A stretch of DNA of 33,693 nt, taken from assembly GCA_027449025.1 (NCBI GenBank), contig DAIDMK010000033.1, positions 1 to 33,693 of the forward strand, read 5' to 3'. This DNA comes from Lutibacter sp. (GTDB taxonomy: Bacteria > Bacteroidota > Bacteroidia > Flavobacteriales > Flavobacteriaceae). Positions within the stretch are counted from its first letter, which is position 1. Each line of letters opens with the position of its first letter. Below, piece after piece: positions 3,303-17,547 of the stretch. Position numbers and translations under genes: made by a program. Under the pieces are notes generated by a model. The model was not told where the DNA came from and ran no database searches. It was given only the letters and a program-made list of their open reading frames with translations.

Positions 3303-3346
3303 TAAAGTTAAATACTGCCTTTTTAACTTTAGATGATAAATATCAA
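3303..3346 (-). promoter_or_regulatory. FNR-like box and -7 element for the sigma-like gene
   Basis: On the minus strand the box reads TTGATATTTATCAT (3346 to 3333), followed by 22 bp and TAACTTTA (3310 to 3303). The predicted transcript start is near 3298. The rest of the 3246-3529 divergent gap shows no gene. Confidence 0.82.
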
Positions 3347-3473
3347 TGTATTGCGATAATTTAACTGTGGAAATTTTAGCATCAACAGCAATTATTGAAG
3401 ACTTATTTGAATGGAAAAAAATTTAATTTCTGTATCATTTTATAAATTCAATTCATTTTAAAGTGCTATTAAA

Positions 3474-3517
3474 TTGATATAAATCATTTTATTGCATATA
3501 AATCAGCAATAACTTTA
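3474..3517 (+). promoter_or_regulatory. FNR-like box and -7 element for the mla operon
   Basis: TTGATATAAATCAT (3474-3487), 22 bp, then TAACTTTA (3510-3517). The predicted start is near 3522, only about 8 nt before the mlaE ATG, so the leader would be very short. Confidence 0.82.
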
Positions 3518-3529
3518 TATCATCTAAAA

Positions 3530-4324
3530 ATGCTGAAACAGATGATAACATCAATTCAAATAGGAAACTCCCTCAAAAGCTTTTTTTCTGAAATTGGCGA
3601 GATGTCCTATTTTGCAGGTAGATTTTTTAAAGAGTTGTTCACAAAACCGTTTGAATTTAAAGAATTATTGCGGCAATGTTACAATATGGGGAATCGTTCC
3701 TTGTTTTTGGTGGGCATTACCGGTTTTATCTTGGGTTTGGTATTTACCTTGCAATCCAGACCAACGCTGATGGAGTTTGGCGCACAATCTTGGATGCCTT
3801 CCATGGTAAGTATTTCCATTGTGCGAGAAATTGGCCCTGTGATTATTGCACTTATTTGTGCCGGAAAAATAAGTTCGGGAATTGGAGCGGAATTGGGTTC
3901 TATGCGTGTAACCGAACAAATTGACGCCATGGAAGTTTCTGGTACAAATCCCTTTAAATATTTGGTGGTAACCCGCATTATGGCAGCTACTTTAATGATT
4001 CCGCTACTTATTATTTTTGGTGATGCCATTGCCCTTTTTGGTTCTGCATTGATAGAAAATTTAAAAGGTGATGTTTCCTTTCAGCTATATTTTAACAAGG
4101 TTTTTGACGCCATTGAATTTTCAGATATTCTTCCTGCCACGGTAAAATCGTTTTTCTTTGGCTTTGCTATTGGTTTGGTGGGGAGTTTTAAAGGATATAA
4201 TTGCACCAATGGAACTGTTGGTGTAGGAGAGGCTTCAAATTCTGCAGTAGTTTATACATCTATGCTCCTATTTATTATCGACTTTATTGCTGTTTTTGTA
4301 AGCGATATTTTCTTTGAACTCTAG
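3530..4324 (+). CDS. mlaE: MlaE-family ABC transporter permease
   Basis: 264-residue inner-membrane permease of the phospholipid or sterol MCE transporters. It has the MlaE core, including GFILGLVFTLQS, VREIGPVIIALICAGKISSG and GAELGSMRVTEQIDAMEVSG, the coupling region that meets the ATPase. About five membrane segments are seen. It heads a tight operon: 2 bp to the ATPase and 9 bp from that to the MCE protein. In Gram-negative bacteria such systems move lipids between inner and outer membrane. Here the operon has an FNR-like box. No periplasmic MlaC or outer-membrane MlaA partner is in the window. Confidence 0.93.
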   Translation: MLKQMITSIQIGNSLKSFFSEIGEMSYFAGRFFKELFTKPFEFKELLRQCYNMGNRSLFLVGITGFILGLVFTLQSRPTLMEFGAQSWMPSMVSISIVREIGPVIIALICAGKISSGIGAELGSMRVTEQIDAMEVSGTNPFKYLVVTRIMAATLMIPLLIIFGDAIALFGSALIENLKGDVSFQLYFNKVFDAIEFSDILPATVKSFFFGFAIGLVGSFKGYNCTNGTVGVGEASNSAVVYTSMLLFIIDFIAVFVSDIFFEL

Positions 4325-4326
4325 CT

Positions 4327-5067
4327 ATGGAAAAAACAAAAAACATAGAACCCATTTTAAGTATTAAAAATTTGAAGAAAAGCTTTGGCGACAATCATGT
4401 GCTAAACGGCTTTAATTTGGAATTGTTTGAGGGAGAAAATTTGGTGTTGATGGGGAAATCCGGATCAGGAAAATCGGTAATGATAAAATGTTTGGTTGGT
4501 TTAATGCAACCCGACACCGGATCTCTTGAAATTATGGGAAAAGATATCAGTAAACTACCTCAAAAAGAATTTAATGAATTGCGCACGGAATTAGGTTTCC
4601 TTTTTCAGGGAAGTGCCTTATACGATTCTATGACCGTTCGGGAAAATTTAGAATTTCCTATGCGTCAACAAAAAAAAACAGAAAAAGAATCCCTTAAACT
4701 AGTGCTTGAAGCCTTGGAAAGTGTTGGATTAACAGAAGCTATCGATTTAATGCCCAATGAACTTTCAGGCGGCATGAAAAGAAGAATTGCCCTTGCAAGA
4801 GCAATCATTCTAAAACCAAAAATTATCATTTATGATGAACCAACAACTGGGCTCGACCCAATAACCTCTAAAGAGATAATACAACTTATGCGTAATATTC
4901 AACAAAATTATAAAACCTCATCAATTATCATTACGCATGATGTAGATTGTGCGAGGGTAATCTCAAACAGAATGATTTTGTTGATTGACGGCATTAATTA
5001 TGCAGAAGGAACTTTTCAGGAATTGTCCACTAATAAAGACGAAAAAATTCAGGCATTTTTTAAATAG
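4327..5067 (+). CDS. mlaF: MlaF-family ABC transporter ATP-binding protein
   Basis: 246-residue ABC ATPase with a complete active site: Walker A GKSGSGKS at about 43-50, Q-loop in FLFQGSALYDSMTV, signature LSGGMKRRIALARA, Walker B IIIYDEPTTGLDP, and the switch His in IITHD. The SALYDSMTV stretch and LSGGMKRR are typical of the MlaF group rather than general ABC importers. It powers the MlaE permease encoded 2 bp upstream. Confidence 0.94.
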   Translation: MEKTKNIEPILSIKNLKKSFGDNHVLNGFNLELFEGENLVLMGKSGSGKSVMIKCLVGLMQPDTGSLEIMGKDISKLPQKEFNELRTELGFLFQGSALYDSMTVRENLEFPMRQQKKTEKESLKLVLEALESVGLTEAIDLMPNELSGGMKRRIALARAIILKPKIIIYDEPTTGLDPITSKEIIQLMRNIQQNYKTSSIIITHDVDCARVISNRMILLIDGINYAEGTFQELSTNKDEKIQAFFK

Positions 5068-5076
5068 ATACTCATT

Positions 5077-6063
5077 ATGAAAACATCAAACACACAAAAA
5101 TTAAGTCTCGGACTGTTTATTTTCATAACCACAATTATTTTTGTATTTGCACTTTATTTAATTGGCAATAAGCAAAATATTTTTGGCAACACGTTCAGAA
5201 TAAGCACCGTATTTAACAATGTAAACGGCTTAATGTTAGGCAATAACGTGCGCTATTCCGGTATTAATATTGGCACTGTAAAAAATATTGAAATGATTAA
5301 TGACAGCACCATTTGTGTTGATATGATTATCGAAGACAAAATGCTTAAACATATGAAAAAAAATGCAGTTGCCGCTGTTGGTTCTGATGGTTTGGTAGGA
5401 AGCATGGTGATAAATATTGTGCCTGGAAAAGATTTTTCTGAAGCCTTAAAACCTGGCGACACTATTAAATCTTACAATAAAACCTCAACTACAGATATGC
5501 TTGAAACTCTAAATACTACTAATGACAATGCAGCTAAGCTGACTTCCGATTTATTGAAAATCACCGCAGCCATTAAACAAGGAAAAGGTACCATTGGCAT
5601 GTTAATTGAAGACGCCGAAATGGCTTCTGACGTAAAACAAATCGTTATAAATTTAAAAAACGCCAGCGCAAGCGCCTCGGTAACAGTAAGCGAATTGAAT
5701 AAAATTATCAAGGCTATCGATTATAATGAAAGTATGGCTGCCGTACTATTAAGCGACACCGTTTCAGCAAATAAAATGAAATCAATTATTACCAATCTTG
5801 AACAATCTAGTTCGGGGATTGATTCAGTAATTAACAATTTAAATTCAGTGGTTTTAGATTTTAAATATGGAAAAGGCACCGTAAATTATATGGTAAATGA
5901 TACTATATTGGTCAATAACATTGATGAAACAATGGAAAACATTAAGGAAGGAAGTGCTCGTTTAAACGAAAATATGGAAGCTTTAAAACACAACTTCTTG
6001 TTTAGGGGTTATTTCAGGAAGCTAGAGCGTCAGCAAAAAAAAGAAGCTGAAAAGAAAAATTAA
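5077..6063 (+). CDS. mlaD: MlaD/MCE-domain protein
   Basis: 328 residues. One N-terminal membrane anchor (about 11-27) is followed by an MCE domain (about 38-125) containing FNNVNGLMLGNNVRYSGINIGTV, GSDGLVGSMVINI and PGDTI. The rest is a long helical tail with two related segments, KQGKGTIGMLIED and KYGKGTVNYMVND. It ends in a basic coiled stretch. MCE domains form hexameric lipid tunnels in the periplasm, bound to the MlaE/MlaF complex. The C-terminal tail is longer than in E. coli MlaD, as is common in Bacteroidota MCE proteins. Confidence 0.92.
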   Translation: MKTSNTQKLSLGLFIFITTIIFVFALYLIGNKQNIFGNTFRISTVFNNVNGLMLGNNVRYSGINIGTVKNIEMINDSTICVDMIIEDKMLKHMKKNAVAAVGSDGLVGSMVINIVPGKDFSEALKPGDTIKSYNKTSTTDMLETLNTTNDNAAKLTSDLLKITAAIKQGKGTIGMLIEDAEMASDVKQIVINLKNASASASVTVSELNKIIKAIDYNESMAAVLLSDTVSANKMKSIITNLEQSSSGIDSVINNLNSVVLDFKYGKGTVNYMVNDTILVNNIDETMENIKEGSARLNENMEALKHNFLFRGYFRKLERQQKKEAEKKN

Positions 6064-6083
6064 ATGCACTTTCGCCCTTAGGA

Positions 6084-6127
6084 TTGATAGATATCATTAC
6101 GGTCATTTTCGCTTTTTTGTAAATTGG
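6084..6127 (+). promoter_or_regulatory. FNR-like box and -7 element for the small lipoprotein gene
   Basis: TTGATAGATATCAT (6084-6097), 22 bp, then TAAATTGG (6120-6127). The predicted start is near 6132, which lies after the alternative TTG start at 6124 and so supports the ATG at 6148. Confidence 0.75.
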
Positions 6128-6147
6128 ATTTATTAAATGCTACAATA

Positions 6148-6534
6148 ATGAAAAAAATAGTTTTTTTACCATTTGTGCTTTTATTTTCTATTGTTTTATC
6201 TTTAGAAAGTTGCGGACCAGTAGTGATAACCTCCAGAATTGGAGCGCCACCACCAACATGGTTTTACCCAAACCGAGCAGAAGTGGTACGCTATATCTAT
6301 TTTCCAGACTATGAGATTTATTATGATTTTTCCCTGAGAACTTACTTATATTTGGACAATAATATTTGGATATCTACGCGTATTTTACCAGCCAGATTTA
6401 ACCATATTGATTTTAGGCGAAGTCACCGTGTTAGAATTAATAATTATTTTGATGATGACATAAAAATTTACCACAACAATAATAGCTACAGAAGCAACAC
6501 CAGCAGAAGGAATACAGGCACCAAGAAAAATTAA
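6148..6534 (+). CDS. Small putative lipoprotein, unknown function
   Basis: 128 residues from the ATG at 6148 (MKKIVFLPF); a longer frame from a TTG at 6124 would begin before the predicted transcript start. The N-terminus is a lipoprotein-like signal ending in LSLESC, so Cys is probably lipidated, though Glu at -2 is not ideal. The mature part is rich in Tyr, Asn and Arg, with a central repeat-like region (YIYFPDYEIYYDFSLRTYLY, then NIWISTRILPARF) and a hydrophilic Asn/Arg-rich tail. I do not recognise a named domain. It is monocistronic, with its own FNR-like box, and converges on the phosphoesterase gene. Confidence 0.75.
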   Translation: MKKIVFLPFVLLFSIVLSLESCGPVVITSRIGAPPPTWFYPNRAEVVRYIYFPDYEIYYDFSLRTYLYLDNNIWISTRILPARFNHIDFRRSHRVRINNYFDDDIKIYHNNNSYRSNTSRRNTGTKKN

Positions 6535-6551
6535 CAGTAACCAGAAAAAAA

Positions 6552-7766
6552 TTATTTGTTAAGTTCAATCAACGTAATTTCAGGGCGCATTCCCAATCTT
6601 CCAGGAAAACCCATCCAACCCAAACCTCTGGTAACATATAAATATTGGTTAAAACGCTTATACAATCCAGCCCAATATTCATATTTATACTGAATGGGAC
6701 TCCATTTTTTACTTTTGATGTTAATTCCGGCTTGCATTCCGTGTGTATGACCAGATAAGGTAAGTGGAATATCCGTTTTTTCCATAACTTCTTCATTCCA
6801 ATGCGAAGGATCGTGAGACAGCAATATTTTAAACGGAATATTGGCAACACTTTTTAAAGCTTTATTTAAATCGCCATATTTTTTAAAAGGCGGATTCCCC
6901 CAATTTTCTACGCCAACAATAGCAATTTTCTGATTCTCGTTTTCAATGCTGACGGATTCATTCAGCAATAATTTAAAATCTACTTTTTTGTAAAAATATT
7001 TGATCGATTCAAAATTGGATTGTTTTGCCTTGGCATTTTTCCAATCGCTATAGTCGCCATAATCATGATTTCCTAAAACCGCATATTTACCAGTTTTAGC
7101 CTTTAATTTTTTCAGTACCGTTTGCCAGCCTTTCAATTCCCATGCATTGTTATTAACCAAATCACCAGTAAAAAAAATAAAATCGGGTTCTAAATAATTG
7201 ATTATTTTAACAGCCCTGTCCAAAATATGATGTCGAGATTTAAAACTCCCCAAATGAAGATCGGAAATATGAACAATGCGCAATCCTTTAAAATTGGCTG
7301 GTAATTCTTCAAAATTAATTTTTATACGATGTACTTTAAACCGATATAAGCTTCTGAAAATACTATAAAGAATAACAAAAAAAGGTAGAAACCCTGCAAA
7401 TAAACCAATAACAGGAATGGCAATTAAAGATTCTTCCTCTGAAATAATATAGTTTGAAAAATATAGGATGGAAATAACAATTACAAAAATTAATTTCGGA
7501 ATAAAAGAAGATACCGTAAGTCCGTAAAATGAAGTTACAAGCAACTGCTTACGGTAAGGATGCATACGCTCTAACCTAACTTTCAACAAAATAATTGATG
7601 TAAGTAGCCCAATGGTAAAAACCCAAAAAGCAATATTAATTAAGTTTTGCAAAAATCCAGATGGCAGTAATCGGGTAATGGATTGAAGCCAATAAAATGC
7701 CAGCGTATCCACAAGCAATATTGCCAAGCATAACAGTATAATGGTGAAAATTGAATATGAGCGCAT
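6552..7766 (-). CDS. Membrane-anchored metallophosphoesterase
   Basis: 404 residues. The N-terminal 140 or so contain about four membrane helices. The rest is a calcineurin-like phosphoesterase domain with all metal motifs: HISDLHLG, FTGDLVNN, GNHDYGD, LSHDPSHW and SGHTHGMQ. The layout matches the YkuE/YaeI-type membrane phosphoesterases, for which a lipid-linked or nucleotide substrate is possible; the substrate is not shown by sequence. It lies 11 bp after the CDP-alcohol phosphatidyltransferase gene on the same strand, so the two form an operon, suggesting a lipid-related role. No FNR-like box was found upstream of this pair. Confidence 0.88.
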   Translation of the reverse strand: MRSYSIFTIILLCLAILLVDTLAFYWLQSITRLLPSGFLQNLINIAFWVFTIGLLTSIILLKVRLERMHPYRKQLLVTSFYGLTVSSFIPKLIFVIVISILYFSNYIISEEESLIAIPVIGLFAGFLPFFVILYSIFRSLYRFKVHRIKINFEELPANFKGLRIVHISDLHLGSFKSRHHILDRAVKIINYLEPDFIFFTGDLVNNNAWELKGWQTVLKKLKAKTGKYAVLGNHDYGDYSDWKNAKAKQSNFESIKYFYKKVDFKLLLNESVSIENENQKIAIVGVENWGNPPFKKYGDLNKALKSVANIPFKILLSHDPSHWNEEVMEKTDIPLTLSGHTHGMQAGINIKSKKWSPIQYKYEYWAGLYKRFNQYLYVTRGLGWMGFPGRLGMRPEITLIELNK

Positions 7767-7777
7767 GGCAAAATGAC

Positions 7778-8389
7778 TTAGTTTGAACTTTTTTCAACGG
7801 CAGTTTTATTCCTTAATCGTCTTTTATCCCGAATTGCCCAATAAACACCTTTCACTCCAGAGACCCAATTATCATACATAAAAATAAGGGTAATCTCTTC
7901 AATTGTTTCTACCAAACCCAATACAACCATCACATAAAACAACCAGTAAATTGGATCAAAAAACAACAGCCAAAGTATAAATATTGATTGAACAATTGCT
8001 GATAATTTAGCTAAATAAGTATGAAAAGCAGTCGCTTTTTTATATTTTAAAAATGCCAAAATCATCTGAAAAATATAAATTACCAAAACCAGCATGATAA
8101 AAAAAGCCTGCGCTTTTACAAAATCAAATTCGTAAATTAAAACACCTATCAATCCTACTAAAAAAGTGATTTGATCACCAAAAGAATCCAATTGAGAGCC
8201 TCTTGCGCTTGTTATATCTAACTTTCGCGCCAAAAAACCATCAATAGCGTCTGTTGAATAACTCACCAACAACAACCAGGTGAATAATTCCCTATTGCCC
8301 AACCATAAAATAAGCAATAAAAATGGTGCAGCAGCAATTCTGTAAAATGAAAACCAATCGGCAATATTATAATTTTTAAAAGTTAACAT
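7778..8389 (-). CDS. CDP-alcohol phosphatidyltransferase family protein
   Basis: 203-residue integral membrane enzyme with the complete family signature D-x2-DG-x2-AR-x8-G-x3-D-x3-D at about 47-72 (DAIDGFLARK, then GSQLDSFGD). The family swaps CMP on a CDP-activated lipid for an alcohol, as in phosphatidylglycerophosphate or phosphatidylinositol synthase. About six membrane helices. The alcohol substrate cannot be told from sequence. It is the first gene of a two-gene operon with the metallophosphoesterase, an arrangement that would suit a synthase followed by a phosphatase (inference). Confidence 0.88.
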   Translation of the reverse strand: MLTFKNYNIADWFSFYRIAAAPFLLLILWLGNRELFTWLLLVSYSTDAIDGFLARKLDITSARGSQLDSFGDQITFLVGLIGVLIYEFDFVKAQAFFIMLVLVIYIFQMILAFLKYKKATAFHTYLAKLSAIVQSIFILWLLFFDPIYWLFYVMVVLGLVETIEEITLIFMYDNWVSGVKGVYWAIRDKRRLRNKTAVEKSSN

Positions 8390-8700: not shown

Positions 8701-9969
8701 TTGTTTAAAATAAATAAAAATAAGGAGTTTTATCAAAATCAGGATATTTTTAATATCCTTTTTGAAGCCATACCTGCAGGGGTTTTTATTGTTGATCAAG
8801 ATACCAATATTGTTGCCTTAAATGCTGTTGCCGAAAAAATGTTTGGTTATGAAAAAGGGGAATTACTTAATAAGTCTAAAGATATCTTGTTACCAAAAAG
8901 ATATCTATCAACCCATAAAAATCAATTAAACTATTTTATAAATCAAATTAAAAAAGGAAAGAAAACCCATGGCTTATACTTATTTGGCTTAACAAAAAAC
9001 AATAAAGAATTTCCGCTTGAAATTTCAATAAATTCTTTTACGCTGTATGAAAAAGAATACAGGTTGGCGCTGGTTATTGATATGACCCTTCGAAGTGAAA
9101 CGGAAAAAAAAATAGATTCCATAAAAGTTGTACTAGAAGAAAAAGTTAAAAAGGGAACTATCGAATTGCAAAATAACATTAACAAGTTAAAAGAAGTTAA
9201 CCGGAATTATAAAAAAGAGCTACACAGAAGGATTGAGATTGAAAATATACTTACGGAAGCCTTAAAAAAAGAAAGGGAACTTAACGAATTAAAGAGTAAA
9301 TTTTTGTCGCTTGTTTCGCACGAATTTAAAACACCTTTAAGCGGAATTCTAACCTCTGCAATTTTATTGGAAAGATACCAATTAACCGAACAACAAGAAA
9401 AAAGGGAAAAACATGTAAAAACAATCACCAATAAAGTACAATATCTAAACAATATCTTAAATGATTTTATTTCCTTAGAACGTTTAGATTCAAGCAATGA
9501 AAATTATAAATTTAAGACTTTTAATTTAAGCAAGGTAATTAATGAAGTTGTTTACAACGCCAATATGCTCTTAAAAAGTGGGCAACACATCAATATTCCA
9601 CTAAATTCAGCCGATTTTGTACTGTATCAGGATGAAAAAAAATTAGAACTTATATTGTCTGTCTTAATTTATAATGCCCTAAAATATTCACCCGAGAACT
9701 CAGAAATTGATTTAGAAATTTCTAGAAATGCCAAAAATATTATTTTCACAATAAAAGATCAAGGACTTGGAATTCCAAAAAAAGATCAAAAATTTGTGTA
9801 TAATCGATATTATAGGGCAGAAAATGTACTAAATATACAGGGAACTGGTATTGGTTTAAATATTGTTAAAGAACATTTAAAAAACTTAGGAGGGACCATT
9901 AGTTTTGATAGCACAGAAAATAAAGGCTCTGTATTTTTTGTTGAACTACCAATAATTAAGGAATTATGA
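8701..9969 (+). CDS. Soluble PAS-domain sensor histidine kinase
   Basis: 422 residues, no membrane segment. Order: PAS (about 14-130), coiled coil (135-195), HisKA with phospho-accepting His207 in SLVSHEFKTP, and HATPase with the N box around Asn325, DQGLG at 353-357 and GTGIG at 381-385. In the PAS domain, LPKRYLSTHKNQL places His72 where FixL has its haem-ligating His (PYRSRHDGYL), so an oxygen or redox sensor is possible. This His also occurs in non-haem PAS domains, and the FixL oxygen-contact Arg is not obvious here. The start is a TTG (8701); no ATG lies between the upstream stop and the PAS domain. The partner regulator follows after 84 bp. Confidence 0.9.
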   Translation: MFKINKNKEFYQNQDIFNILFEAIPAGVFIVDQDTNIVALNAVAEKMFGYEKGELLNKSKDILLPKRYLSTHKNQLNYFINQIKKGKKTHGLYLFGLTKNNKEFPLEISINSFTLYEKEYRLALVIDMTLRSETEKKIDSIKVVLEEKVKKGTIELQNNINKLKEVNRNYKKELHRRIEIENILTEALKKERELNELKSKFLSLVSHEFKTPLSGILTSAILLERYQLTEQQEKREKHVKTITNKVQYLNNILNDFISLERLDSSNENYKFKTFNLSKVINEVVYNANMLLKSGQHINIPLNSADFVLYQDEKKLELILSVLIYNALKYSPENSEIDLEISRNAKNIIFTIKDQGLGIPKKDQKFVYNRYYRAENVLNIQGTGIGLNIVKEHLKNLGGTISFDSTENKGSVFFVELPIIKEL

Positions 9970-10053
9970 CACAAGCATTACAAATTTTGAAAAATAAAGA
10001 AATGATTTATGGCGAACAGCATCTGTTACCGCTTAAAAATAAAATTTAAACAG

Positions 10054-11109
10054 ATGAAAAAGGTATTATTAATTGAAGATGATGAAGTAGTAAGAGAAAA
10101 TACTGCTGAACTTTTGGAATTGGCCAATTACGAAGTTTTTACTGCCGCAAATGGTAAAATTGGTGTTTTTGAAGCTAAAAAACAACTGCCAGATATTATT
10201 CTGTGTGATATTATGATGCCTGAATTAAATGGCTACGGTGTGCTTCAAATACTCTCAAAAGAACAAGAAACCAAACATATTCCGTTTATTTTTCTTTCAG
10301 CAAAAACCGAACACAAAGATATACGAAAAGGCATGGATTTGGGCGCCGATGATTATCTTACTAAGCCTTTTGACGAGTCGGAATTGTTTAGCGCTATAGA
10401 AAGCAGGTTGGCAAGGGTTGCCATTATTAAAGAAAACATAGAGAAAGTAAAAAATACTGAAATCTATTGCGCTGAAAATGAGCTGAAAACATTAAATCAT
10501 CTTAAAGGTTTTTTTGTAGACAATGTTGAAGAACTCTCCTTTAATCCAGGTGAAATTATTTACTATGAAGGCGACAATTCCAATTTCGTATTTTTAATAA
10601 GTGCAGGCATCGTAAAAACATTTAAAATTGATGAGCAAGGCAAAGAATTAGTGACTGGATTACATAAAGAAAATGATTTTTTTGGTTTTACGTCCTTCTC
10701 AAACAATATCCCCTACCAGGAATCGGCTGCGGCCATAGAATATGTAAAAGCCTCGAGATTGTTAAAAACCGAATTTAAAAACATCTTACAAAAAAATCAC
10801 GAAGTAACCTTTGAGTTGATTGATTATATCACTGATAATGTCTCAGAGATTAAAGACCAATTGCTGCAAATGGCCTATAGTTCCGTTCGAAAAAAAACAG
10901 CGAATACCATATTGCAATTTTCTGAAAAAATGAAGAAAGTACACAACGAAATGCCTAAAATTTCAAGAACCGACCTGGCAGGGATAGCAGGTATTGCCAC
11001 AGAGACTTTTATAAGAACCCTCTCCGATTTTAAAAAAGACGGTCTAATAGAAATAGAGGGAAGAAGTATTAAGATTTTGAATATTGAGAAGTTGAAGAAA
11101 GTTTTTTAG
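10054..11109 (+). CDS. Receiver domain fused to CRP/FNR-type transcription factor
   Basis: 351 residues from the ATG at 10054 (MKKVLLIEDD); an upstream ATG at 10009 would add 15 atypical residues. A receiver domain (1-120) has the acidic pair Asp9/Asp10, phospho-Asp52 in LCDIMMP and Lys104 in TKPF. A linker leads to a cNMP-like beta barrel (150-245), a dimer helix, and a CRP/FNR winged helix (about 275-345). The recognition helix reads ATETFIRTLSDF. Glu317 and Arg321 match the spacing of FNR E209/R213, which read the GA of TTGAT, while FNR Ser212 is Ile here. There are only two Cys, so no FNR-type iron-sulfur cluster; the signal should come through phosphorylation. It is the best candidate for binding the island's boxes. 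Confidence 0.9.
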   Translation: MKKVLLIEDDEVVRENTAELLELANYEVFTAANGKIGVFEAKKQLPDIILCDIMMPELNGYGVLQILSKEQETKHIPFIFLSAKTEHKDIRKGMDLGADDYLTKPFDESELFSAIESRLARVAIIKENIEKVKNTEIYCAENELKTLNHLKGFFVDNVEELSFNPGEIIYYEGDNSNFVFLISAGIVKTFKIDEQGKELVTGLHKENDFFGFTSFSNNIPYQESAAAIEYVKASRLLKTEFKNILQKNHEVTFELIDYITDNVSEIKDQLLQMAYSSVRKKTANTILQFSEKMKKVHNEMPKISRTDLAGIAGIATETFIRTLSDFKKDGLIEIEGRSIKILNIEKLKKVF

Positions 11110-11324: not shown

Positions 11325-12170
11325 ATGAAAACCATTTTAATACCTACCGATTTTTCAGAAAATTCCTGGAACGCCGTTAAATACGCTTTAGAATTTTTTA
11401 AAAATACTGAATGTGATTTTTACTTGTTACATGTCTCTATAATTTACAACTACGCCAGTGGTGAAACACCAATAATGCCACCTATCAATGTTGAATTTAT
11501 TGATAAAACCGTATTAAAACAAGCCAAAACGCAATTAGAAAAACTTCTTAAAAAAATTGATTTATTGCCGCATAATCCAAAACATCATTTTTATACGCTA
11601 AATAATTACGATTATTTTATTGACGCCGTAAGAGCCCAAGTTACCGAAAAAAATATTGACCTTATTGTGATGGGTACTAAAGGTGCTTCTGGCCTAAAAA
11701 AAGTAATGATTGGGAGCAATACAGGCGATTTAATTACCAGAGTAAAATGCCCAGTTTTGATAGTTCCGGAAAATGCTGTATTTAAAGAAATTAAAGAAAT
11801 TGCATTTCCTACAGATTATCATCTTTTTTATCCAACCAAAATTTTAAACAGTATTTTAGAATTCATCAAAATGCATGATTCATCTTTAAGAATTGTGCAC
11901 ATTACAAAAAAAGATGAAGAGTTCACTGAATTTCAGCTTGAGAACAAGGAGTTCTTAAAAAATTTCTTTGCAGAAGAAAAACACAGTTTTCATAAAATTA
12001 CCAATAAAAATATTGAAGATGGTGTCCAGAGTTTCGTGGAAAGCAGGGATATTAATATGATAACAATGATTGCCAAGAACCTTAATCTTTTTCAACGAAT
12101 TTTATTTAGGCCAACCGTGGAAGAAATTAGTTACCATACTGAAATTCCCTTTTTTGTGCTGCACGAATAA
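11325..12170 (+). CDS. Tandem-domain universal stress protein (UspA family)
   Basis: 281 residues made of two Usp folds. The first (1-150) opens with TILIPTDFSENSWNAVKYA and keeps the ATP-binding G-x2-G-x9-G-S motif (GTKGASGLKKVMIGSNTG, then CPVLIVPE). The second (about 155-281) is degenerate and lacks that motif, so one active and one structural domain is likely. Usp proteins support survival in stasis and under low oxygen; the precise activity is unknown. The gene follows the receiver-CRP/FNR gene, has its own FNR-like box, and is followed 18 bp later by a small membrane protein gene in the same unit. Confidence 0.92.
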   Translation: MKTILIPTDFSENSWNAVKYALEFFKNTECDFYLLHVSIIYNYASGETPIMPPINVEFIDKTVLKQAKTQLEKLLKKIDLLPHNPKHHFYTLNNYDYFIDAVRAQVTEKNIDLIVMGTKGASGLKKVMIGSNTGDLITRVKCPVLIVPENAVFKEIKEIAFPTDYHLFYPTKILNSILEFIKMHDSSLRIVHITKKDEEFTEFQLENKEFLKNFFAEEKHSFHKITNKNIEDGVQSFVESRDINMITMIAKNLNLFQRILFRPTVEEISYHTEIPFFVLHE

Positions 12171-12188: not shown

Positions 12189-12581
12189 ATGGATGAAGTA
12201 TCTATTTTTCTAGCCAAATTTTGGGGATGGTATTTAATTATTTTCTTTTTAATATTAAGCTTCAATCCAAAAAGGATTGTACAAGTAATTAAAAACTTAG
12301 AAGATCAAAAATTTGTTATTGTCATTTCTTTTACGGCCATTGTTATTGGATTGCTCAATATTTTATTTCATAACATTTGGGAAGACGACTGGCGGCTAAT
12401 AATCACTTTTATAGGCTGGATAGCACTATTTATTGGCTTGTCGCTGTTTATTTTTCCAAAGAGAACCGTTTTATGGCTCGATTATCTCAATATTAAATTT
12501 GTTCAGGTAATTTATATGATGCTTTTTTTTGTAGGCCTGTTCCTGCTAAATATGGCTTACGGAATTGTTATTTTTCAATAA
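12189..12581 (+). CDS. Small four-helix membrane protein, unknown function
   Basis: 130 residues with about four hydrophobic segments (about 12-24, 41-60, 68-87, 105-128) and short loops. FWGWYLIIFFLILSFNPKRI and LFIFPKRTVLWLDYLN flank the helices. I do not recognise a named family with confidence. It lies 18 bp behind the Usp gene and is probably co-transcribed from the 11255 box, so it belongs to the same stress unit. Confidence 0.75.
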   Translation: MDEVSIFLAKFWGWYLIIFFLILSFNPKRIVQVIKNLEDQKFVIVISFTAIVIGLLNILFHNIWEDDWRLIITFIGWIALFIGLSLFIFPKRTVLWLDYLNIKFVQVIYMMLFFVGLFLLNMAYGIVIFQ

Positions 12582-12637
12582 AAAGGCTAAAAACACAATA
12601 AAAAAAACTCAAAAACTGAGAACAATCATATGCCTAA

Positions 12638-12681
12638 TTGATGCATATCATTTTAAGACATTAAATTAGATGTTAATTTTA
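12638..12681 (+). promoter_or_regulatory. FNR-like box and -7 element driving a noncoding region
   Basis: TTGATGCATATCAT (12638-12651), 22 bp, then TAATTTTA (12674-12681), the same design as the protein-gene promoters. The predicted start is near 12686, but no open frame of useful size follows until 13463. The transcript would instead cover the three-copy hairpin array. Confidence 0.82.
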
Positions 12682-12685
12682 CACC

Positions 12686-13298
12686 ATAATAAAAAACAAA
12701 AAGTTCATTGAATTAAAGCAAATAAAATTTCCCCACGTATTTAAATTTGCATTTTGCTTAGCAATAATAGGCTAATTTGAAGAATTAAAGGTGAACAAAT
12801 TAAATCGATTTTAGTTTTGTCTTAGAAATAAGGTGACGTAAGAAATTATTTAAAAATTGCAGAGAACAGCTTAATTACTTCAAGATAGACGCAGGAGGTT
12901 TCTGCCTCATGATTCTATCAAAAAACAGGTCTCCATTGTTGCAAAATAATGCAGATCCAGAAGGGTTTTAAGGTGTTATTTTAGTATAGCTAATTTTAGT
13001 ATTGTTTTAGAAATGAAATGCTATGAAAAATTAGTTAGCATTAAAAAACAATCTTAACCGCTTCAAGAAGCAGGAAGTTAAAAACTTCCTGCTTCTACTA
13101 AAAAAGGGATAGATTTTCATTATTGAAAAGTAATGAGGATTGAAATGAAGAGTTTCAAGTTGTTGTTTGAGTAAAATTAGTTTTAGTATTGGTGTTATTC
13201 TAGAGATAAATTAATATAAAAAATTAGTTTTGCGTTATAAAACAAACTTAATCCCTTCAGGAAACAGGAAGTTACGGCTTCCTGTTTCTATTTTTAAG
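12686..13298 (+). ncRNA. Three-copy tandem hairpin RNA array
   Basis: Three related units with a period of about 185-190 bp. Shared anchors are TTTTAGT (12809, 12994, 13181), CTTAA followed after three bases by CTTCA (CTTCA at 12878, 13061, 13255), and a terminal hairpin ending in TCTA. Unit 2 hairpin: a 14-bp perfect stem 13066-13079 with 13083-13096, loop AAA. Unit 3: an 11-bp stem 13261-13271 with 13278-13288, then a T-run. Unit 1 is degenerate: GATAGA/TCTATC (12884, 12914) around GAGG/CCTC. Units 2 and 3 are the closest pair. The array starts just after an FNR-box promoter and holds no protein frame. It could be one RNA of about 610 nt or a processed set of small RNAs. The function is unknown. 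Confidence 0.7.
13261..13295 (+). terminator. Unit 3 hairpin, probable terminator of the RNA array
   Basis: GAAACAGGAAG (13261-13271) pairs with CTTCCTGTTTC (13278-13288), followed by TATTTTT. It is the only one of the three hairpins followed by a T-run, which fits a single long transcript ending here. Confidence 0.7.
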
Positions 13299-13326
13299 AA
13301 ACTCGTAATCTTCTTTTAATAACATA

Positions 13327-13340
13327 TTGATTTCTATCAA
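13327..13340. promoter_or_regulatory. FNR-like box with non-standard placement, upstream of the DUF302 gene
   Basis: TTGATTTCTATCAA is a perfectly symmetric TTGAT-N4-ATCAA site. Unlike the others, no TAnnTTTA follows at 22 bp, and it lies 122 bp before the ATG at 13463. A TAAATTTA at 13443-13450 could be a separate -7 element, so the site may act as an upstream activator, as a repressor, or not at all. Confidence 0.45.
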
Positions 13341-13462
13341 ATTCACAATCCATTCAGAAATAACATGTTGAAAAGTTATGTAACAATTATACATCTTTTA
13401 TTGTAATAAATGTCGAAATTTACTGTCTTACTTAAACATTTATAAATTTAAAATTATAAAAA

Positions 13463-13852
13463 ATGGACTATTATTATTCAATTATATTAAACAAGCTCAC
13501 TTTTGAACAAGCCGTAGAAAAAGTAACTGCTGAACTTCAAAAAGAAGGATTTGGGGTGCTAACAGAAATAGACATAAAAACCACCCTTAAGAAAAAATTG
13601 GATGTGGATTTTTACAATTACAAAATACTGGGTGCCTGCAATGCACCTTTTGCCTACAAAGCTTTAAAAGCCGAAGACAAAATTGGAACCATGCTTCCGT
13701 GCAACGTTATTGTTCAGGAAAAAGAACCAGGAATTATTGAAGTATCAGCCATCAATCCAATTGTTTCTATGCAAGCCGTTGTAAATGAATCCTTGGCGCC
13801 AATTGCCTTGGAAATCGGTGATAAACTTAAAAAAGTCTTGGCAAACCTGTAA
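13463..13852 (+). CDS. DUF302-domain protein
   Basis: 129 residues, cytosolic, with the DUF302 core: FEQAVEKVTAELQKEGFGVLTEID at the start, YKILGACNAPFAYKAL in the middle, and GTMLPCNVIVQEKEPG before the C-terminal helix. DUF302 proteins are small alpha/beta folds of unknown activity, often next to stress and redox genes. It lies between the hairpin RNA array and the ribosome hibernation factor gene. It is probably a separate transcript, as no hairpin-free read-through from the array is evident. Confidence 0.88.
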   Translation: MDYYYSIILNKLTFEQAVEKVTAELQKEGFGVLTEIDIKTTLKKKLDVDFYNYKILGACNAPFAYKALKAEDKIGTMLPCNVIVQEKEPGIIEVSAINPIVSMQAVVNESLAPIALEIGDKLKKVLANL

Positions 13853-13942
13853 CTAATTATATCTAAACTACTTGCAACAAATTGATATTTAAATCTTGTT
13901 GCCGATAAATTTTCAAACAACGTTGATTTTATCAACCTACAT

Positions 13943-13986
13943 TTGATAAATATCATTGGCAATGGCTACTGTATTGAATATCTTTA
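13943..13986 (+). promoter_or_regulatory. FNR-like box and -7 element for the ribosome hibernation gene
   Basis: TTGATAAATATCAT (13943-13956), 22 bp, then TATCTTTA (13979-13986). The predicted start is near 13991, 30 nt before the ATG. Confidence 0.85.
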
Positions 13987-14020
13987 ACTGTCAATATCAT
14001 TTTAATATAAAGTTATTATT

Positions 14021-14323
14021 ATGGAAATTAAAATTCAATTTGTTCAAGTTCCAAAAAGTGAAGCTTTGGAATCATTTGTGATTAAAAAACTACATAAAAT
14101 GTCTGGCAAATATGAATGGTTGATTAGGGCTGATGTGTTTTATAAATTAGAACCTGACACAAAAGGAAAAGGTAAAATTTGCGATATAAGATTAAGTCTT
14201 CCCGGACCAATAATTTTTGCTTCTTCTGATGAAGAAAGCTTTGAAGCCGCTACTGATGAAACCTTACGCGACCTAGACAAGCAGCTACAAAAACGTAAAA
14301 ATGAAATGAAACTTTATTTGTAA
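14021..14323 (+). CDS. hpf: Ribosome hibernation promoting factor, HPF/RaiA family
   Basis: 100-residue short-type HPF/YfiA protein: MEIKIQFVQVPKSEALESFVIKKL at the start, the beta-strand region with CDIRLSLPGPIIFAS, then the helix SFEAATDETLRDLDKQLQKRK. The family binds the 30S decoding site and silences 70S ribosomes in resting cells. The length excludes the long form with a dimerising C-terminal domain. Control by an FNR-like box ties translation shutdown to the same signal as the Usp and Mla genes. It is monocistronic and convergent with the phosphoribosyltransferase operon; the gap holds only a weak AGCC/GGCT hairpin. Confidence 0.9.
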   Translation: MEIKIQFVQVPKSEALESFVIKKLHKMSGKYEWLIRADVFYKLEPDTKGKGKICDIRLSLPGPIIFASSDEESFEAATDETLRDLDKQLQKRKNEMKLYL

Positions 14324-14368
14324 GGCAGTATTTAGATTTTAGCCTATCGGCTTCTTATATTTGTTTTT

Positions 14369-15007
14369 TCAAACTAAATAGCTTGGGCAATTTTTCAAGA
14401 TTTCAACAACTTCATTGTCATTTACCTGATCAAACTCCTCATAAAACTGTCCGACCGCCTGAAAATCTACAGGAGCCAACAAGCAAATAACTTCATTCAC
14501 CTCAGGCATTTCCCTAATTTTCCTCAAAGCCGAATTTGGAGCAACAGGCAATGCAACAATTATTTTTGAAGGTTTTTGAAGCCGAAGAAGCTGAATACAA
14601 GAAATCATAGTGTTTCCTGTAGCGATGCCGTCATCAACCAAAATAATTATTTTGTCCTTGAGTGGCATTGGTTTTTTTTCTCCATAATACAAATGATGAC
14701 GCTGTTTTAACAAAGCCCTCACATGTTCTGTTTCATCATAAATATAAACAGGAGAAATTTCTTTTGCAACATCACTTAAAATACTGTTTTCTAAAGTAAC
14801 TGCGCCAATGGCATATTCTTTATTAAAAGGATGACCAATTTTTTTGGAGAACACTATTTCTAGTGGTACATTTAACGTTTTGGCTATTTCAACCGCAACA
14901 GGAACACCACCCCTTGGAATTGCAACAATAACAACCTCTTTATCGTCTTTATAGTTCCTTAATTTATTTGCCAGCAATTTGCCAGCTTCTTCCCTATCTG
15001 TAAACAT
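14369..15007 (-). CDS. Phosphoribosyltransferase family protein
   Basis: 212 residues of the type I PRTase fold. The PRPP loop is VDDGIATGNTM (DDGIATGNT at 125-133), and the first loop is AIPRGGVPVAVEIA. It resembles the stress-linked phosphoribosyltransferases that in other bacteria are fused or adjacent to a dienelactone-hydrolase-like domain; here the hydrolase is the separate gene 11 bp upstream. The base substrate is unknown. It is the last gene of the four-gene minus-strand unit that starts at 16773. Confidence 0.9.
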   Translation of the reverse strand: MFTDREEAGKLLANKLRNYKDDKEVVIVAIPRGGVPVAVEIAKTLNVPLEIVFSKKIGHPFNKEYAIGAVTLENSILSDVAKEISPVYIYDETEHVRALLKQRHHLYYGEKKPMPLKDKIIILVDDGIATGNTMISCIQLLRLQKPSKIIVALPVAPNSALRKIREMPEVNEVICLLAPVDFQAVGQFYEEFDQVNDNEVVEILKNCPSYLV

Positions 15008-15018
15008 GGCGTTCGCTT

Positions 15019-15675
15019 TTAGCTTCTCATTTTCAAATACTTGTCAAACCATTCCACAGAAAGTTTTGCAACAATTTCCAATTTTCCGGCTTCTGGAAAT
15101 AAATGCGTTGCGCCCTCAATAATTTTTAGTTCACAAATACCATTTATAGCTGCTGTTGCTTTTTTATTTAGTTCAATAACCACCTCATCATTGCCGCCAA
15201 CAATTAACAGTATAGGTGTTTTTATATCTTTTAAAATTGGCATGGCCAAATCTGGGCGACCGCCTCTCGATACAATGGCTCTTATGCTTTTTCCAAGCTG
15301 AGCAGCAGCACTTAAAGCAGAAGCTGCCCCAGTGCTTGCTCCAAAATATCCAATTGGTAATTTATTTGTTCCCTTTTGACTCATAACCCATTTTGTGACT
15401 TTCACAAGTCGTTCCGTGAGTAGTTCAATATTAAAACGATTTTCGTAGATTAAATCTTCTTTGGCAGTCAATAAATCGAAAAGCAAACTGGAAAAACCTT
15501 TCTCAAACAACAAACTTGCAACATAATTATTTCTGGTGCTCAACCTGCTGCTGCCACTTCCATGTGAAAATAATACAATTCCCTTAGAATGCTCGGCAAG
15601 TCTTAAATTTCCTTTTAAACTAATTCCGTCAATCTCAATATCTATTACTTTATAAGTTTCATCAATACTTGTCAT
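15019..15675 (-). CDS. Alpha/beta hydrolase, dienelactone hydrolase-like
   Basis: 218 residues with an apparently complete triad: nucleophile Ser114 in GYFGASTGAA, Asp163 in VGGNDEVV, His191 in EGATHLFPE. The oxyanion segment is FSHGSGSS (about 36-43). The family hydrolyses small esters or lactones; the substrate is unknown. It lies 11 bp before the phosphoribosyltransferase gene and 18 bp after the DUF2267 gene, matching the hydrolase-PRTase pairing found in stress loci of other phyla. Confidence 0.9.
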   Translation of the reverse strand: MTSIDETYKVIDIEIDGISLKGNLRLAEHSKGIVLFSHGSGSSRLSTRNNYVASLLFEKGFSSLLFDLLTAKEDLIYENRFNIELLTERLVKVTKWVMSQKGTNKLPIGYFGASTGAASALSAAAQLGKSIRAIVSRGGRPDLAMPILKDIKTPILLIVGGNDEVVIELNKKATAAINGICELKIIEGATHLFPEAGKLEIVAKLSVEWFDKYLKMRS

Positions 15676-15693
15676 AATTATATTTATTGGTTT

Positions 15694-16140
15694 TCAAAAC
15701 ATAATATTTTGATATACAATAGATTTAAGATCTTTTGGAAGCACTGTTCTAATGTCTTCTAGTTCACCCAATGAAACATATTTGCGTAACTCCATAAATG
15801 TTGAATTGATGTAATTTTCAGCAATTTCGTCAGAGCCGAAATCGTGTATGGAAGTTACCCCGTCTAATTCTCGAATTAAATCAATGAACTCAACCAAGTT
15901 TTTAATTTTTTTCTTTTTGCGTGTAGTCCATCTGTTTACATAAACTGCTTTTAAGAACATTGGAAATTGGGAAATTAACTGCAATGATTCTTCAATAGTG
16001 ATTACCTCACGCAATCCATGTAAAATAGAAGACAATATTCTTCCCGCTTTATCCTTATCGTCAGGCATATTCAATTTTTTTGCATAATCTTTTAGAAACG
16101 CATTGCCTTCTCTTGCATATTGATTAAAATTTAGTGCCAT
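15694..16140 (-). CDS. DUF2267-domain protein
   Basis: 148 residues, helical. The N-terminus NQYAREGNAFLKDYAKKLNM, the KAGRILSSILHGLREVITIEESLQLISQFPMFLKAVYVNRW block and a basic RKKKKIK stretch fit DUF2267, a family of unknown activity found near Usp, HPF and hydrolase genes. The C-terminal half repeats the helical pattern (LGELEDIRTVLPKDLK). Second gene of the minus-strand operon, 18 bp after the WG-repeat gene. Confidence 0.85.
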   Translation of the reverse strand: MALNFNQYAREGNAFLKDYAKKLNMPDDKDKAGRILSSILHGLREVITIEESLQLISQFPMFLKAVYVNRWTTRKKKKIKNLVEFIDLIRELDGVTSIHDFGSDEIAENYINSTFMELRKYVSLGELEDIRTVLPKDLKSIVYQNIMF

Positions 16141-16158
16141 AATATTGTTTTTTATAAG

Positions 16159-16773
16159 TTAAAACTGATATATTTCCCATTTTTTATTTTTGGTTTTTAC
16201 AGCAACTAATTTTGGTGCGATAAACATCGTTTCAATTATAGGAATGCCATTTTTATAGTTTGCCGGTACATTTTTTCTTGGATTGTATAAATATTTTACC
16301 AATTCTCCTGAAGTATCAATCACATATTCTTCCAAAACATTAGACACAACAGCCTTTTTAAGAACATAGTTAAACCCAATAGAATCTTTTGAAGACAACA
16401 CAACAATGGCATAACCATTTGAAAAATTTGTGGCATTTAAAAACTGAGGCTTAATTATTTCTACGCCTTTTTCATTGATAAAACCGTAGTAATAAGTATC
16501 GCCAATAAATTTTCTGATCAAACACCTGCCATCATTAAAAACAGGGTAAGAAATTGTTTGATTTAAAGAATTTAACCTATTGGTTAGCACTAAATCAGCC
16601 CTAAAATTAATTATCTTTTTACCTTCTTTATCTATAAAAGCCCACTGATCAGCTTTTTTAATGGCAGCAAAATCACCGTGAAAAGGATAAACCTCATCAA
16701 TATCACTTAAAATTTGTGAGAAAGCAGCAGTATAAAATCCGAAACAAACAATTAAAAGGAGTAATTTTTTCAT
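16159..16773 (-). CDS. Secreted WG-repeat protein
   Basis: 204 residues with a signal peptide (MKKLLLLIVCFGFYTAAFSQ). The mature part has two readable WG-type repeats: DQWAFIDKEGKKIINFRADL at about 42-61 and YGFINEKGVEIIKPQF at about 96-111. A C-terminal stretch KNKKWEIYQF may be a half repeat. WG repeats form beta folds, probably for binding; no enzyme motif is seen. It is the first gene of a four-gene operon and sits directly behind the FNR-like box at 16826-16839. An exported protein leading an otherwise cytosolic unit is unusual. Confidence 0.83.
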   Translation of the reverse strand: MKKLLLLIVCFGFYTAAFSQILSDIDEVYPFHGDFAAIKKADQWAFIDKEGKKIINFRADLVLTNRLNSLNQTISYPVFNDGRCLIRKFIGDTYYYGFINEKGVEIIKPQFLNATNFSNGYAIVVLSSKDSIGFNYVLKKAVVSNVLEEYVIDTSGELVKYLYNPRKNVPANYKNGIPIIETMFIAPKLVAVKTKNKKWEIYQF

Positions 16774-16795
16774 GATTATTCATTTATTATTCACA

Positions 16796-16839
16796 TAAAG
16801 CTATGGTTCGTTTAAATTTTAAAAAATGATTTCCCTCAA
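16796..16839 (-). promoter_or_regulatory. FNR-like box and -7 element for the WG/DUF2267/hydrolase/PRTase operon
   Basis: On the minus strand TTGAGGGAAATCAT (16839 to 16826, one mismatch to the island consensus), 22 bp, then TAGCTTTA (16803 to 16796). The predicted start is near 16791, 18 nt before the ATG. Confidence 0.72.
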
Positions 16840-16990
16840 TCTGACACGAATTCATTTTAAATTTCGATGTGAAATTTCAATCATTTGAAGTCATTTGTCA
16901 TAAATAGCCCGATTTACTACTGAAAATTATGTAAAACAATGAGCGTTTTCAATTTATTAGTGAATTAAGACCCTGTTTACTTGTCTCCGT

Positions 16991-17035
16991 TTGATATATA
17001 TCATTTCTAGTGAGGCTAATAATGAATTACTTAGC
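16991..17035 (+). promoter_or_regulatory. FNR-like box upstream of the first helical paralogue
   Basis: TTGATATATATCAT (16991-17004), identical to the Usp gene box. The best -7 candidate is TACTTAGC (17028-17035), 23 bp downstream and poorly matched, so this promoter may depend more on the activator. Confidence 0.72.
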
Positions 17036-17057
17036 TAAAAATTAAAAACCCTCAGAA

Positions 17058-17471
17058 ATGGAATCGAACATCGTTTACAAATCATTTTCCAAGGATAAAA
17101 CCATCGAGGAATTGCTTTATAATGTATCCTTATGGAAATCAGAATATGCTTTTATCAATATAGAATTGGCTTTTATAAAAAGACTCATTAAAGCCTATCC
17201 GTTTTCGGTAACCATCCCAAATTTGTATGAACGGTTGCAATTATTTATTTTAGAACTTGATAATTTGGAACAAACTAAAAATGATATTCTTGTTCAAATT
17301 AATGATTATGACAAGAAATTAACGGAACATAAAGATGCCATAACGCTGAATTCCGGTCATTTGCACCTGATTGAATTTGAAAATCTGGCGGAAGAAGTTT
17401 TTATATACATAAAACACTACAAAAATTTAAAAATTCGAATATTTGAATATATAAATGGTCTCATCAGTTAA
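17058..17471 (+). CDS. Helical protein of unknown family (paralogue 1)
   Basis: 137 residues, predicted mostly alpha-helical with coiled-coil potential and no signal peptide. The N-terminal part, SKDKTIEELLYNVSLWKSEYAFINIELAFIKRLI, aligns with the next gene's product: x-EEL-x2-N-x2-LW-x-SE-x2-FI-x3-E. The middle has LDNLEQTKNDILVQINDYDKKL and the end KHYKNLKIRIFEYINGL. I do not recognise the family. It has its own FNR-like box and no operon partner. Confidence 0.75.
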   Translation: MESNIVYKSFSKDKTIEELLYNVSLWKSEYAFINIELAFIKRLIKAYPFSVTIPNLYERLQLFILELDNLEQTKNDILVQINDYDKKLTEHKDAITLNSGHLHLIEFENLAEEVFIYIKHYKNLKIRIFEYINGLIS

Positions 17472-17503
17472 TCAGTTTCTGAAGAAAACTAAAATTTTAA
17501 AAA

Positions 17504-17547
17504 CTGATGGATATCAAATTATTTTTCGGTTTTAGTGTTTAACTTTA
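17504..17547 (+). promoter_or_regulatory. FNR-like box and -7 element for the second helical paralogue
   Basis: CTGATGGATATCAA (17504-17517), 22 bp, then TAACTTTA (17540-17547). The predicted start is near 17552. The box overlaps the right arm of an inverted repeat ATCAGTTT/AAACTGAT (17471-17478, 17501-17508) that may terminate the previous gene. Confidence 0.75.

Follow-up and report, generated by a model that had tools for sequence, protein, structure and literature searches.

On the sequence comparisons, nine promoters in a 33,693-nucleotide contig of Lutibacter sp. (GCA_027449025.1, contig DAIDMK010000033.1; the whole contig is hereafter the window) are members of one promoter class, conserved in relatives and tied to a regulator encoded at 10054-11109 of the same window. 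Each promoter has an FNR-like box 22 bp upstream of a -7 element. The regulator combines a receiver domain with a CRP/FNR-type output, and a PAS histidine kinase is encoded just upstream of it. We consider it quite probable that these components constitute a two-component low-oxygen regulon, of which the universal stress protein (Usp) genes are the shared core. Phosphorylation of the regulator, activation from position -41.5 and oxygen as the signal are the parts of this scheme that we infer.

Results

Nine boxes at a fixed distance from the -7 element

All nine boxes of the original prediction were found at their places. TTGATNNNNATCAT occurs exactly at seven of them (3346 on the minus strand, 3474, 6084, 11255, 12638, 13943 and 16991); the site at 16839 on the minus strand has one mismatch, and that at 17504 reads CTGAT...ATCAA. 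The exact box occurred 0.20 times on average (maximum 2) in 200 dinucleotide-preserving shuffles of the window. When up to one mismatch was allowed, 21 matches were found against 7.5 expected. The joint pattern of TGA-N6-TCA, a 22-bp gap and TAnnTTT was found seven times, always within 3303-17547, against a mean of 0.14 (maximum 2) in the same number of such shuffles, and other gaps from 17 to 28 bp gave only 0 or 1 matches. Chance as the origin of the boxes was rejected on these counts, in agreement with the earlier argument that such spacing is hard to obtain by chance. In the own genome (3.34 Mb), the TGAT-core pattern with the 22-bp gap occurs 18 times, six of them in this 33.7-kb contig; the control read backward occurs 0 times.

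The spacing had been given as 22 bp in eight cases and 23 bp at 16991. The 22-bp spacing stood; the exception did not. The element at 22 bp from the 16991 box is TTACTTAG, and since the same TTACTTAG at 22 bp recurs before 8 of the 9 same-genus orthologues, the gap is better read as 22 bp, and a 23-bp gap was rejected. The 6084 box is followed by TAAATTGG, an imperfect version of the -7 element; before all seven orthologues an element stands at 22 bp, as TAAATTGG, TAAATTGA or TAAATTAG. Read in this way, the gap is 22 bp for all nine boxes, with the full TAnnTTT at seven.

Two further observations concern these elements. The stretch 13327-13340, which reads TTGATTTCTATCAA, is a fuller palindrome than any of the nine boxes; it was absent from the earlier list and has no element at 22 bp. 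The TAAATTGG element at 6120-6127 resembles the TAnnTTGY box of the SM5-type promoters of F. psychrophilum, as given in part of a study of that species (PMC9723704), and an alternative sigma factor is possible for this promoter.

Conservation of the promoter class among relatives

The 10054-11109 protein was searched against 149 genomes of the family Flavobacteriaceae, and 66 were positive at E<=1e-40, in 65 of 148 genera. Aquimarina and Salinimicrobium are among the nearest named matches. Sixty regions of about 20 kb around regulator orthologues were analysed, leaving out the window's own genome and genomes G022, G037, G041, G089 and G146; for control, one region away from the regulator was hand-picked in each of 20 of the genomes analysed.

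In the 60 regions, TGAT-N4-ATCA was followed by TAnnTTT at 22 bp in 113 cases, and at each other gap from 5 to 44 bp in 0 to 8. With the looser TGA-N6-TCA core, there were 240 sites at 22 bp and 3 to 13 at any other gap in that range, and eight control cores showed no spacing peak. The site density was 202/Mb near the regulator against 7.5/Mb (three sites) in the control regions. Start codons lie at a median distance of 24 from the -7 element.

The boxes were also followed gene by gene in 11 same-genus loci, namely the longest matches to a noncoding array in the window (12796-13306; see below). Orthologues were counted as the best match per locus with at least 60% coverage, and matches with less than 120 nt upstream were left uncounted. 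For the eight boxed protein genes, 59 of 61 orthologues are preceded by a site at 22 bp; 44 of these sites fit the strict pattern, and 15, at the 6124 and 17058 genes, were accepted with a looser -7 element. For 12 unboxed genes the figure is 2 of 95 orthologues. At the 3474 promoter, one of the six orthologues (in locus L313) has a differing box. The 11 of 11 for the 12638 box partly reflects selection, because a match to that stretch was the criterion for choosing the loci. The check set beforehand, that boxes should lie upstream of orthologues in relatives, was thus answered in the positive, and the fixed spacing and the gene-by-gene conservation bear out the proposal that the nine promoters belong to one regulon.

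The outer bases were counted in 239 sites, one of the 240 being dropped because it lay at an edge. The left outer base is C in 52%, A in 41% and T in 5%, and the right outer base is T in 97%. The family box is (C/A)TGAT-WWWT-ATCAT, and that of the window TTGAT-N4-ATCAT. The E. coli FNR consensus is TTGAT-N4-ATCAA. The earlier description of the box as FNR/FixK-like therefore holds for the TGAT half-sites but not for the outer bases, which led us to reject the exact FNR consensus.

In a wider search of 296 genomes of the phylum, 46 regulator matches at E<=1e-40 were found, the window's own included; 43 are nearly full-length and belong to several families of the same class, and three match through the receiver only. 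In five regions from other families (L279, L289, L290, L057 and L059), a single site with the 22-bp gap adjoins the regulator. In L290 it is followed by a D-lactate dehydrogenase-like frame, and the frames of the other four resemble this one by eye. Some sites outside the family precede CcoN-like genes (by eye) and CBS-domain-like proteins.

The regulator

The regulator matches the Pfam families Response_reg (2e-28), cNMP_binding (7e-16) and HTH_Crp_2 (3e-13). In all 30 sequences compared, the receiver residues D52 and K104 that mark a response regulator are invariant, as are E317 and R321 in the recognition helix, which would correspond to the Glu and Arg contacts of FNR and FixK. Ile320 sits where FNR has Ser212. 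The sole invariant cysteine is Cys51, in the receiver, and the N-terminal cysteine ligands of an FNR-type 4Fe-4S cluster are absent from the conserved positions of these 30 sequences. The fold matches are CRP proteins, with a TM-score over the whole query of only 0.29-0.39; the AlphaFold model has a pTM of 0.41, and its domain arrangement was not used. By its sequence the protein is a response regulator with a CRP/FNR output, not FNR or FixK proper.

The recognition helix covaries with the outer left base of the box, which makes the 10054-11109 product their probable binder. Helix residues could be read for 69 of 71 regions. With Phe at residue 319, 41 of 52 sites within the genus and 5 of 18 outside it carry T as the outer base (uncorrected for kinship). 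Leu goes with C or A, T being found at 7 of 211 sites, and with Ala T is seen at 0 of 11. In the own genome, eight of the nine cluster boxes start with T (five of six by the strict pattern; p=0.002 for the eight of nine), against 2 of 12 sites elsewhere, as if two regulators divided the sites of this genome between them.

The kinase

In all 60 family regions and in 11 of 12 named ones (71 of 72), a PAS kinase is encoded beside the regulator and in the same direction; of 20 regions from other families, 18 have a kinase match. Among solved structures its PAS sequence is nearest to FixL and DosP: the Mucilaginibacter copy matches FixL at E=1e-32 and the window's own at 1e-5. For the Salinimicrobium copy E is 5e-15, and heme PAS domains make up all 14 of the solved sequences that it matches. 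His72 aligns with the heme-ligand histidine of FixL and is conserved in 71 of the 72 kinases. The kinase PAS and the target content together suggest oxygen sensing. By eye, a 27-codon frame at 9966-10049 overlaps the kinase stop codon through ATGA and fills the space up to the regulator.

Target genes

The 240 sites of the 60 regions lead to 232 reading frames, and eight sites have no frame. Each target cluster was named from one representative or by tblastn with a window gene. Usp accounts for 106 of the 232 frames, spread over 56 regions. It is encoded near the regulator in 58 of 60 regions against 0 of 20 controls, and 105 of 206 Usp matches, in 56 of the 60 regions, have a site upstream. 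The second commonest target is a 135-aa family, present in 27 regions (L164 12147-12554 and 26 more), and 13 frames belong to a family that by eye resembles 17571-18041. Rarer targets are HPF (11), the fused CcoNO of cbb3 oxidase (8), WG proteins (5), Hsp20 (4), MlaE (4) and a 90-aa family without a Pfam match (4). DnaJ, thioredoxin, a pyridoxamine oxidase-like protein and a 93-aa protein were found three times each and HemN twice, besides other pairs and 22 singletons. A Pfam search gave no convincing family for the 6124, 12189, 17058 and 17571 products or for the 135-aa family. The genes for the sigma-like protein, DUF2267, hydrolase, phosphoribosyltransferase and DUF302 lie near the regulator in only two to five regions, none with a site. 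From the site counts per gene, Usp is the shared core and the other targets vary; on these comparisons the gene set of the window is only partly common to other genera.

The evidence for a sigma-like product of 2535-3245 is weak (region 4, E=0.022; sigma70-ECF, 5e-4; both below the curated cut-offs). The promoter at 16796-16839 would also drive the DUF2267, alpha/beta hydrolase and phosphoribosyltransferase genes (16773-14369) if these form one operon with the WG gene.

Twelve sites of the own genome lie outside the window. Seven precede nameable genes, four unnamed frames and one no frame. The nameable genes encode pyruvate phosphate dikinase, indolepyruvate ferredoxin oxidoreductase, molybdopterin oxidoreductase, a multiheme cytochrome, a beta-CASP nuclease, a flavoprotein oxidoreductase and another CRP-family protein; much of this set is anaerobic.

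The noncoding array behind the 12638 box

No plus-strand frame of 60 codons occurs from the 12638 box until 13463. This stretch holds an array of three units, about 185-193 nt apart, each ended by a hairpin; Rfam at gathering thresholds gave no match in the window. Of 38 same-genus genomes, 11 others have matches to the array over about 690 bases at 76-85% identity, the rest being weak or absent. Each of the 12 loci, including that of the window, has three to six units. A wider pattern collected 53 noncoding units, a narrower one having yielded five. Alignment of the 53 units shows that, of 14 predicted pairs, 3 have changes on both sides that preserve the pairing, two of them in the end hairpin. 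Our guesses are that the array is a hypoxia-induced small RNA or a repeated decoy.

Sites without a frame were also seen in other genera, in L161 (11877 and 12100, plus strand), L174 (1057, minus strand) and L216 (11763, plus strand), where a hairpin and a T-run follow within about 300 nt by eye; these are possible small RNAs. In the same-genus locus L315, six near-identical terminator-like hairpins (AAGAAGCCTCTTC...GAAGAGGC, with a T-run) lie about 132 nt apart at about 3020-3720, downstream of a gene of the 17571 type.

Table 1. Promoters, genes and the noncoding array of the window. Fractions are sites found before same-genus orthologues or, where stated, before matches in other genera.
Position	Strand	Feature	Gene or remark	Sites in relatives
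3303-3346	-	box TTGATATTTATCAT (3346-3333), -7 element TAACTTTA	promoter of sigma-like gene 3245-2535	3/3; other genera 0/3
3474-3517	+	box TTGATATAAATCAT, 22 bp, TAACTTTA	promoter of mlaE-ABC-mlaD (3530-6063)	6/6; other-genus MlaE 4/7
6084-6127	+	box TTGATAGATATCAT, 22 bp, TAAATTGG (imperfect -7)	before small protein without Pfam match	7/7
8701-9969	+	histidine kinase, PAS-HisKA-HATPase	His72 aligned with heme-ligand His of FixL; start codon uncertain	
10054-11109	+	regulator, 351 aa	receiver domain, cNMP-binding fold, CRP/FNR helix-turn-helix	
11255-11298	+	box TTGATATATATCAT, 22 bp, TAATTTTA	promoter of usp (11325-12170) and probably 12189-12581	9/10
11325-12170	+	universal stress protein		
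12638-12681	+	box TTGATGCATATCAT, 22 bp, TAATTTTA	promoter of noncoding array	11/11 loci, partly by selection
12796-13306	+	noncoding array	three units about 185 nt apart, each closed by a hairpin	3-6 units in 12/12 loci
13943-13986	+	box TTGATAAATATCAT, 22 bp, TATCTTTA	promoter of HPF-like gene 14021-14323	10/10; other-genus HPF 11/16
16796-16839	-	box TTGAGGGAAATCAT, 22 bp, TAGCTTTA	promoter of WG protein gene	8/8; other-genus WG 5/10
16991-17034	+	box TTGATATATATCAT, 22 bp, TTACTTAG	before 17058-17471 (no family)	8/9; other genera 1/10
17504-17547	+	box CTGATGGATATCAA, 22 bp, TAACTTTA	before 17571-18041 (no family)	8/8; other genera 5/24

Discussion

Proposed mechanism

The spacing allows a prediction of the promoter geometry. 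The -7 box of F. psychrophilum lies at -12 to -5, according to the part of the study already cited (PMC9723704). Given this position and the 22-bp gap, the 14-mer is predicted to span -48 to -35 with its centre at -41.5, the class II position. No -33 element was found in the spacer of the 239 sites, only a T-rich stretch beside the box. The nine sites would then be class II activator promoters of one regulon, with the 10054-11109 product as the activator. The kinase would most likely sense falling oxygen through a FixL-type heme PAS, for this genome the weakest step of the scheme. It would phosphorylate the regulator, in which Asp52 is invariant, and phosphorylated dimers would bind (T/C/A)TGAT-N4-ATCAT centred at -41.5. 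The spacing and the lack of a conserved -33 element suggest that the housekeeping sigma factor is recruited there at the TAnnTTTA/G -7 box.

The output would comprise Usp, the HPF-like ribosome hibernation factor, Mla lipid transport, the sigma-like protein, the WG-DUF2267-hydrolase-phosphoribosyltransferase genes and the structured noncoding array, in all a programme of shutdown and survival, to which some relatives would add cbb3 oxidase, Hsp20 and HemN. A separate FNR-like protein appears to use nearly the same box, probably for targets of anaerobic metabolism elsewhere in the genome.

Alternative explanations

Several facts, given here together with the explanations that they favour, weigh against this two-component low-oxygen regulon. 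One alternative is that the FNR-like protein binds all the boxes and senses oxygen through its own cysteines, the fusion of receiver and CRP/FNR output having other targets. This protein is encoded in the own genome on contig C52, truncated at the contig end, and is present in 90 of the 149 family genomes at E<=1e-25. It resembles the fusion in its recognition helix (ATESAIR), and its CxxC and VCFIPK cysteines recur among the relatives read. In a comparison that ignores phylogeny, the mean number of sites with the 22-bp gap per genome was 11.3 with both regulators (n=36), 6.5 with the fusion alone (n=30), 4.8 with the FNR-like protein alone (n=54) and 1.45 with neither (n=29); the corresponding values for a 25-bp control gap were 0.94, 0.93, 1.46 and 1.07. 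Since the sites increase with either regulator, both seem to use the box. Three of the 29 genomes with neither have six, seven and eight sites, and one genome with the FNR-like protein and no fusion has 20.

Around the FNR-like gene, 20 regions from the 54 fusion-negative genomes that carry it were examined, and 18 of them hold sites (19 in all, 52/Mb). There is, however, only about one site per region, the outer base is A in 16 of 19, and no Usp is found. With the TGA core another gap reached 14, and with the TGAT core the 22-bp gap gave five, no more than the largest other gap, so that the case for the fusion is the cleaner of the two. An earlier count of 0 sites in 19 short loci of 2.3-3.5 kb was misleading and was not used, because the wider regions hold sites. 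Regions L166, L167, L168, L169 and L180 each contain another CRP-type gene, whose ESAIR helix is like that of the FNR-like protein. Where the genome lacks the FNR-like protein at the threshold above, 26 of 27 fusion regions still carry sites (103 in total, 3.8 per region), compared with 33 of 33 (4.2 per region) where it is present. Together with the covariation of the outer base with the helix of the fusion, and with the T-starting boxes of the own cluster among a genome of mostly A or C, these facts make it rather improbable that the FNR-like protein accounts for all the boxes. The covariation itself has a limit: outside the genus it gave a Fisher p of 0.001 both by sites and by regions (4/4 against 7/53), in tests uncorrected for common descent and with only four Phe regions. 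Autoregulation of the kinase-regulator pair was rejected, as no site stands before either gene in the 60 regions, which is also a point against the proposed regulon. In other genera, sites precede the genes for the sigma-like protein in 0 of 3 cases, DUF2267 in 0 of 3, phosphoribosyltransferase in 0 of 2, hydrolase in 0 of 2 and 17058 in 1 of 10, and outside the family the signal is weak (12 sites at the 22-bp gap against a mean of 1.4 for other gaps, in 20 regions).

As for the signal, the two-component system may be as described and respond to redox state, energy, nitric oxide or starvation. At the position that aligns with Arg220 of FixL, 50 of 72 kinases have Arg and that of the window has Leu92; the signal of this copy may therefore be a different one. 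The same His and Arg are found, besides, in PAS domains that are not known to be heme-binding. In a fold search with the PAS model of the window (pTM 0.70), heme PAS domains were at the top by E-value, but flavin LOV domains had the higher TM-score (0.67 against 0.57-0.64), so that the two fit about equally. Usp and HPF answer to starvation too. Against a different signal stand the heme PAS matches of the Salinimicrobium and Mucilaginibacter kinases and, among the targets of relatives, cbb3 oxidase, HemN and the D-lactate dehydrogenase-like gene. Oxygen is therefore likely as the signal for the family and, because of Leu92, less sure for the kinase of the window; for the system as a whole we regard a signal other than oxygen as unlikely, though less so than binding of all the boxes by the FNR-like protein. 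That the boxes are repressor sites or an accident of composition is very improbable: a box overlapping -35 could repress as well, but the exact 22-bp gap in 60 regions of other genomes, the control cores without a peak and the conservation before same-genus orthologues argue otherwise.

Relation to known systems

Flavobacteria are a major group in the sea, in soil and in fish, and we found no named regulator in the open-access papers searched that would link oxygen-loss sensing to entry into shutdown in them. F. psychrophilum induces cbb3 under oxygen limitation according to the part of that report consulted, the main text of which does not contain the words FNR and CRP (PMC9723704). No description of the present system was found in the open-access literature, which does not prove its absence from print. 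For dozens of genera the present analysis puts forward candidates for the sensor, the regulator, the box with its spacing and the set of targets. We give about an even chance to a wider proposal, that there may be a one-step low-oxygen switch across a class of Bacteroidota, in which a FixL-type kinase works directly on an FNR-type response regulator, the main task of which in this family is to start a shutdown programme of several Usp paralogues, ribosome hibernation and, within the genus, a tandem array of structured noncoding RNA units, perhaps a multi-copy small RNA or a decoy made of repeated hairpins.

The parallel with the DosR system of mycobacteria, drawn in the original prediction, is one of content and not of protein families. 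The output domain, sensor type and DNA box of the DosR system differ from those found here. As listed in part of one paper, the DosR regulon places Usp, the ribosome-associated hypoxia factor Rv0079 and the putative phosphoribosyltransferase Rv0571c under a two-component system (PMC5309233), much like the Usp, ribosome factor and phosphoribosyltransferase genes of the window. The NmpRSTU system of Myxococcus xanthus likewise has a heme-binding kinase and, under hypoxia, Usp, cbb3 oxidase and HemN as targets, but it works through an NtrC-type regulator, sigma-54 promoters and a phosphorelay of several proteins, as described in part of the source (PMC11841059).

With E. coli-type FNR, the system shares the TGAT...ATCA half-sites, the invariant Glu317 and Arg321 and, by prediction, the class II spacing; it differs in the outer bases, in the added receiver domain and in having no conserved N-terminal cysteine cluster. 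Closely comparable is FixL-FixJ-FixK of rhizobia. Both have a FixL-related PAS kinase, CRP/FNR-type DNA binding, a box centre at -41.5 (predicted here) and, here in some relatives, cbb3 oxidase among the targets. Here, in contrast, the heme PAS is putative, the box ends are (C/A/T)TGAT...ATCAT, Usp genes dominate the targets, and receiver and CRP/FNR output are joined in one protein that has no FixJ/LuxR-type output domain. The system would thus work like FixL-FixJ-FixK with FixJ and FixK merged, a design that fuses two steps of a known cascade in a single protein, the helix of which covaries with its box.

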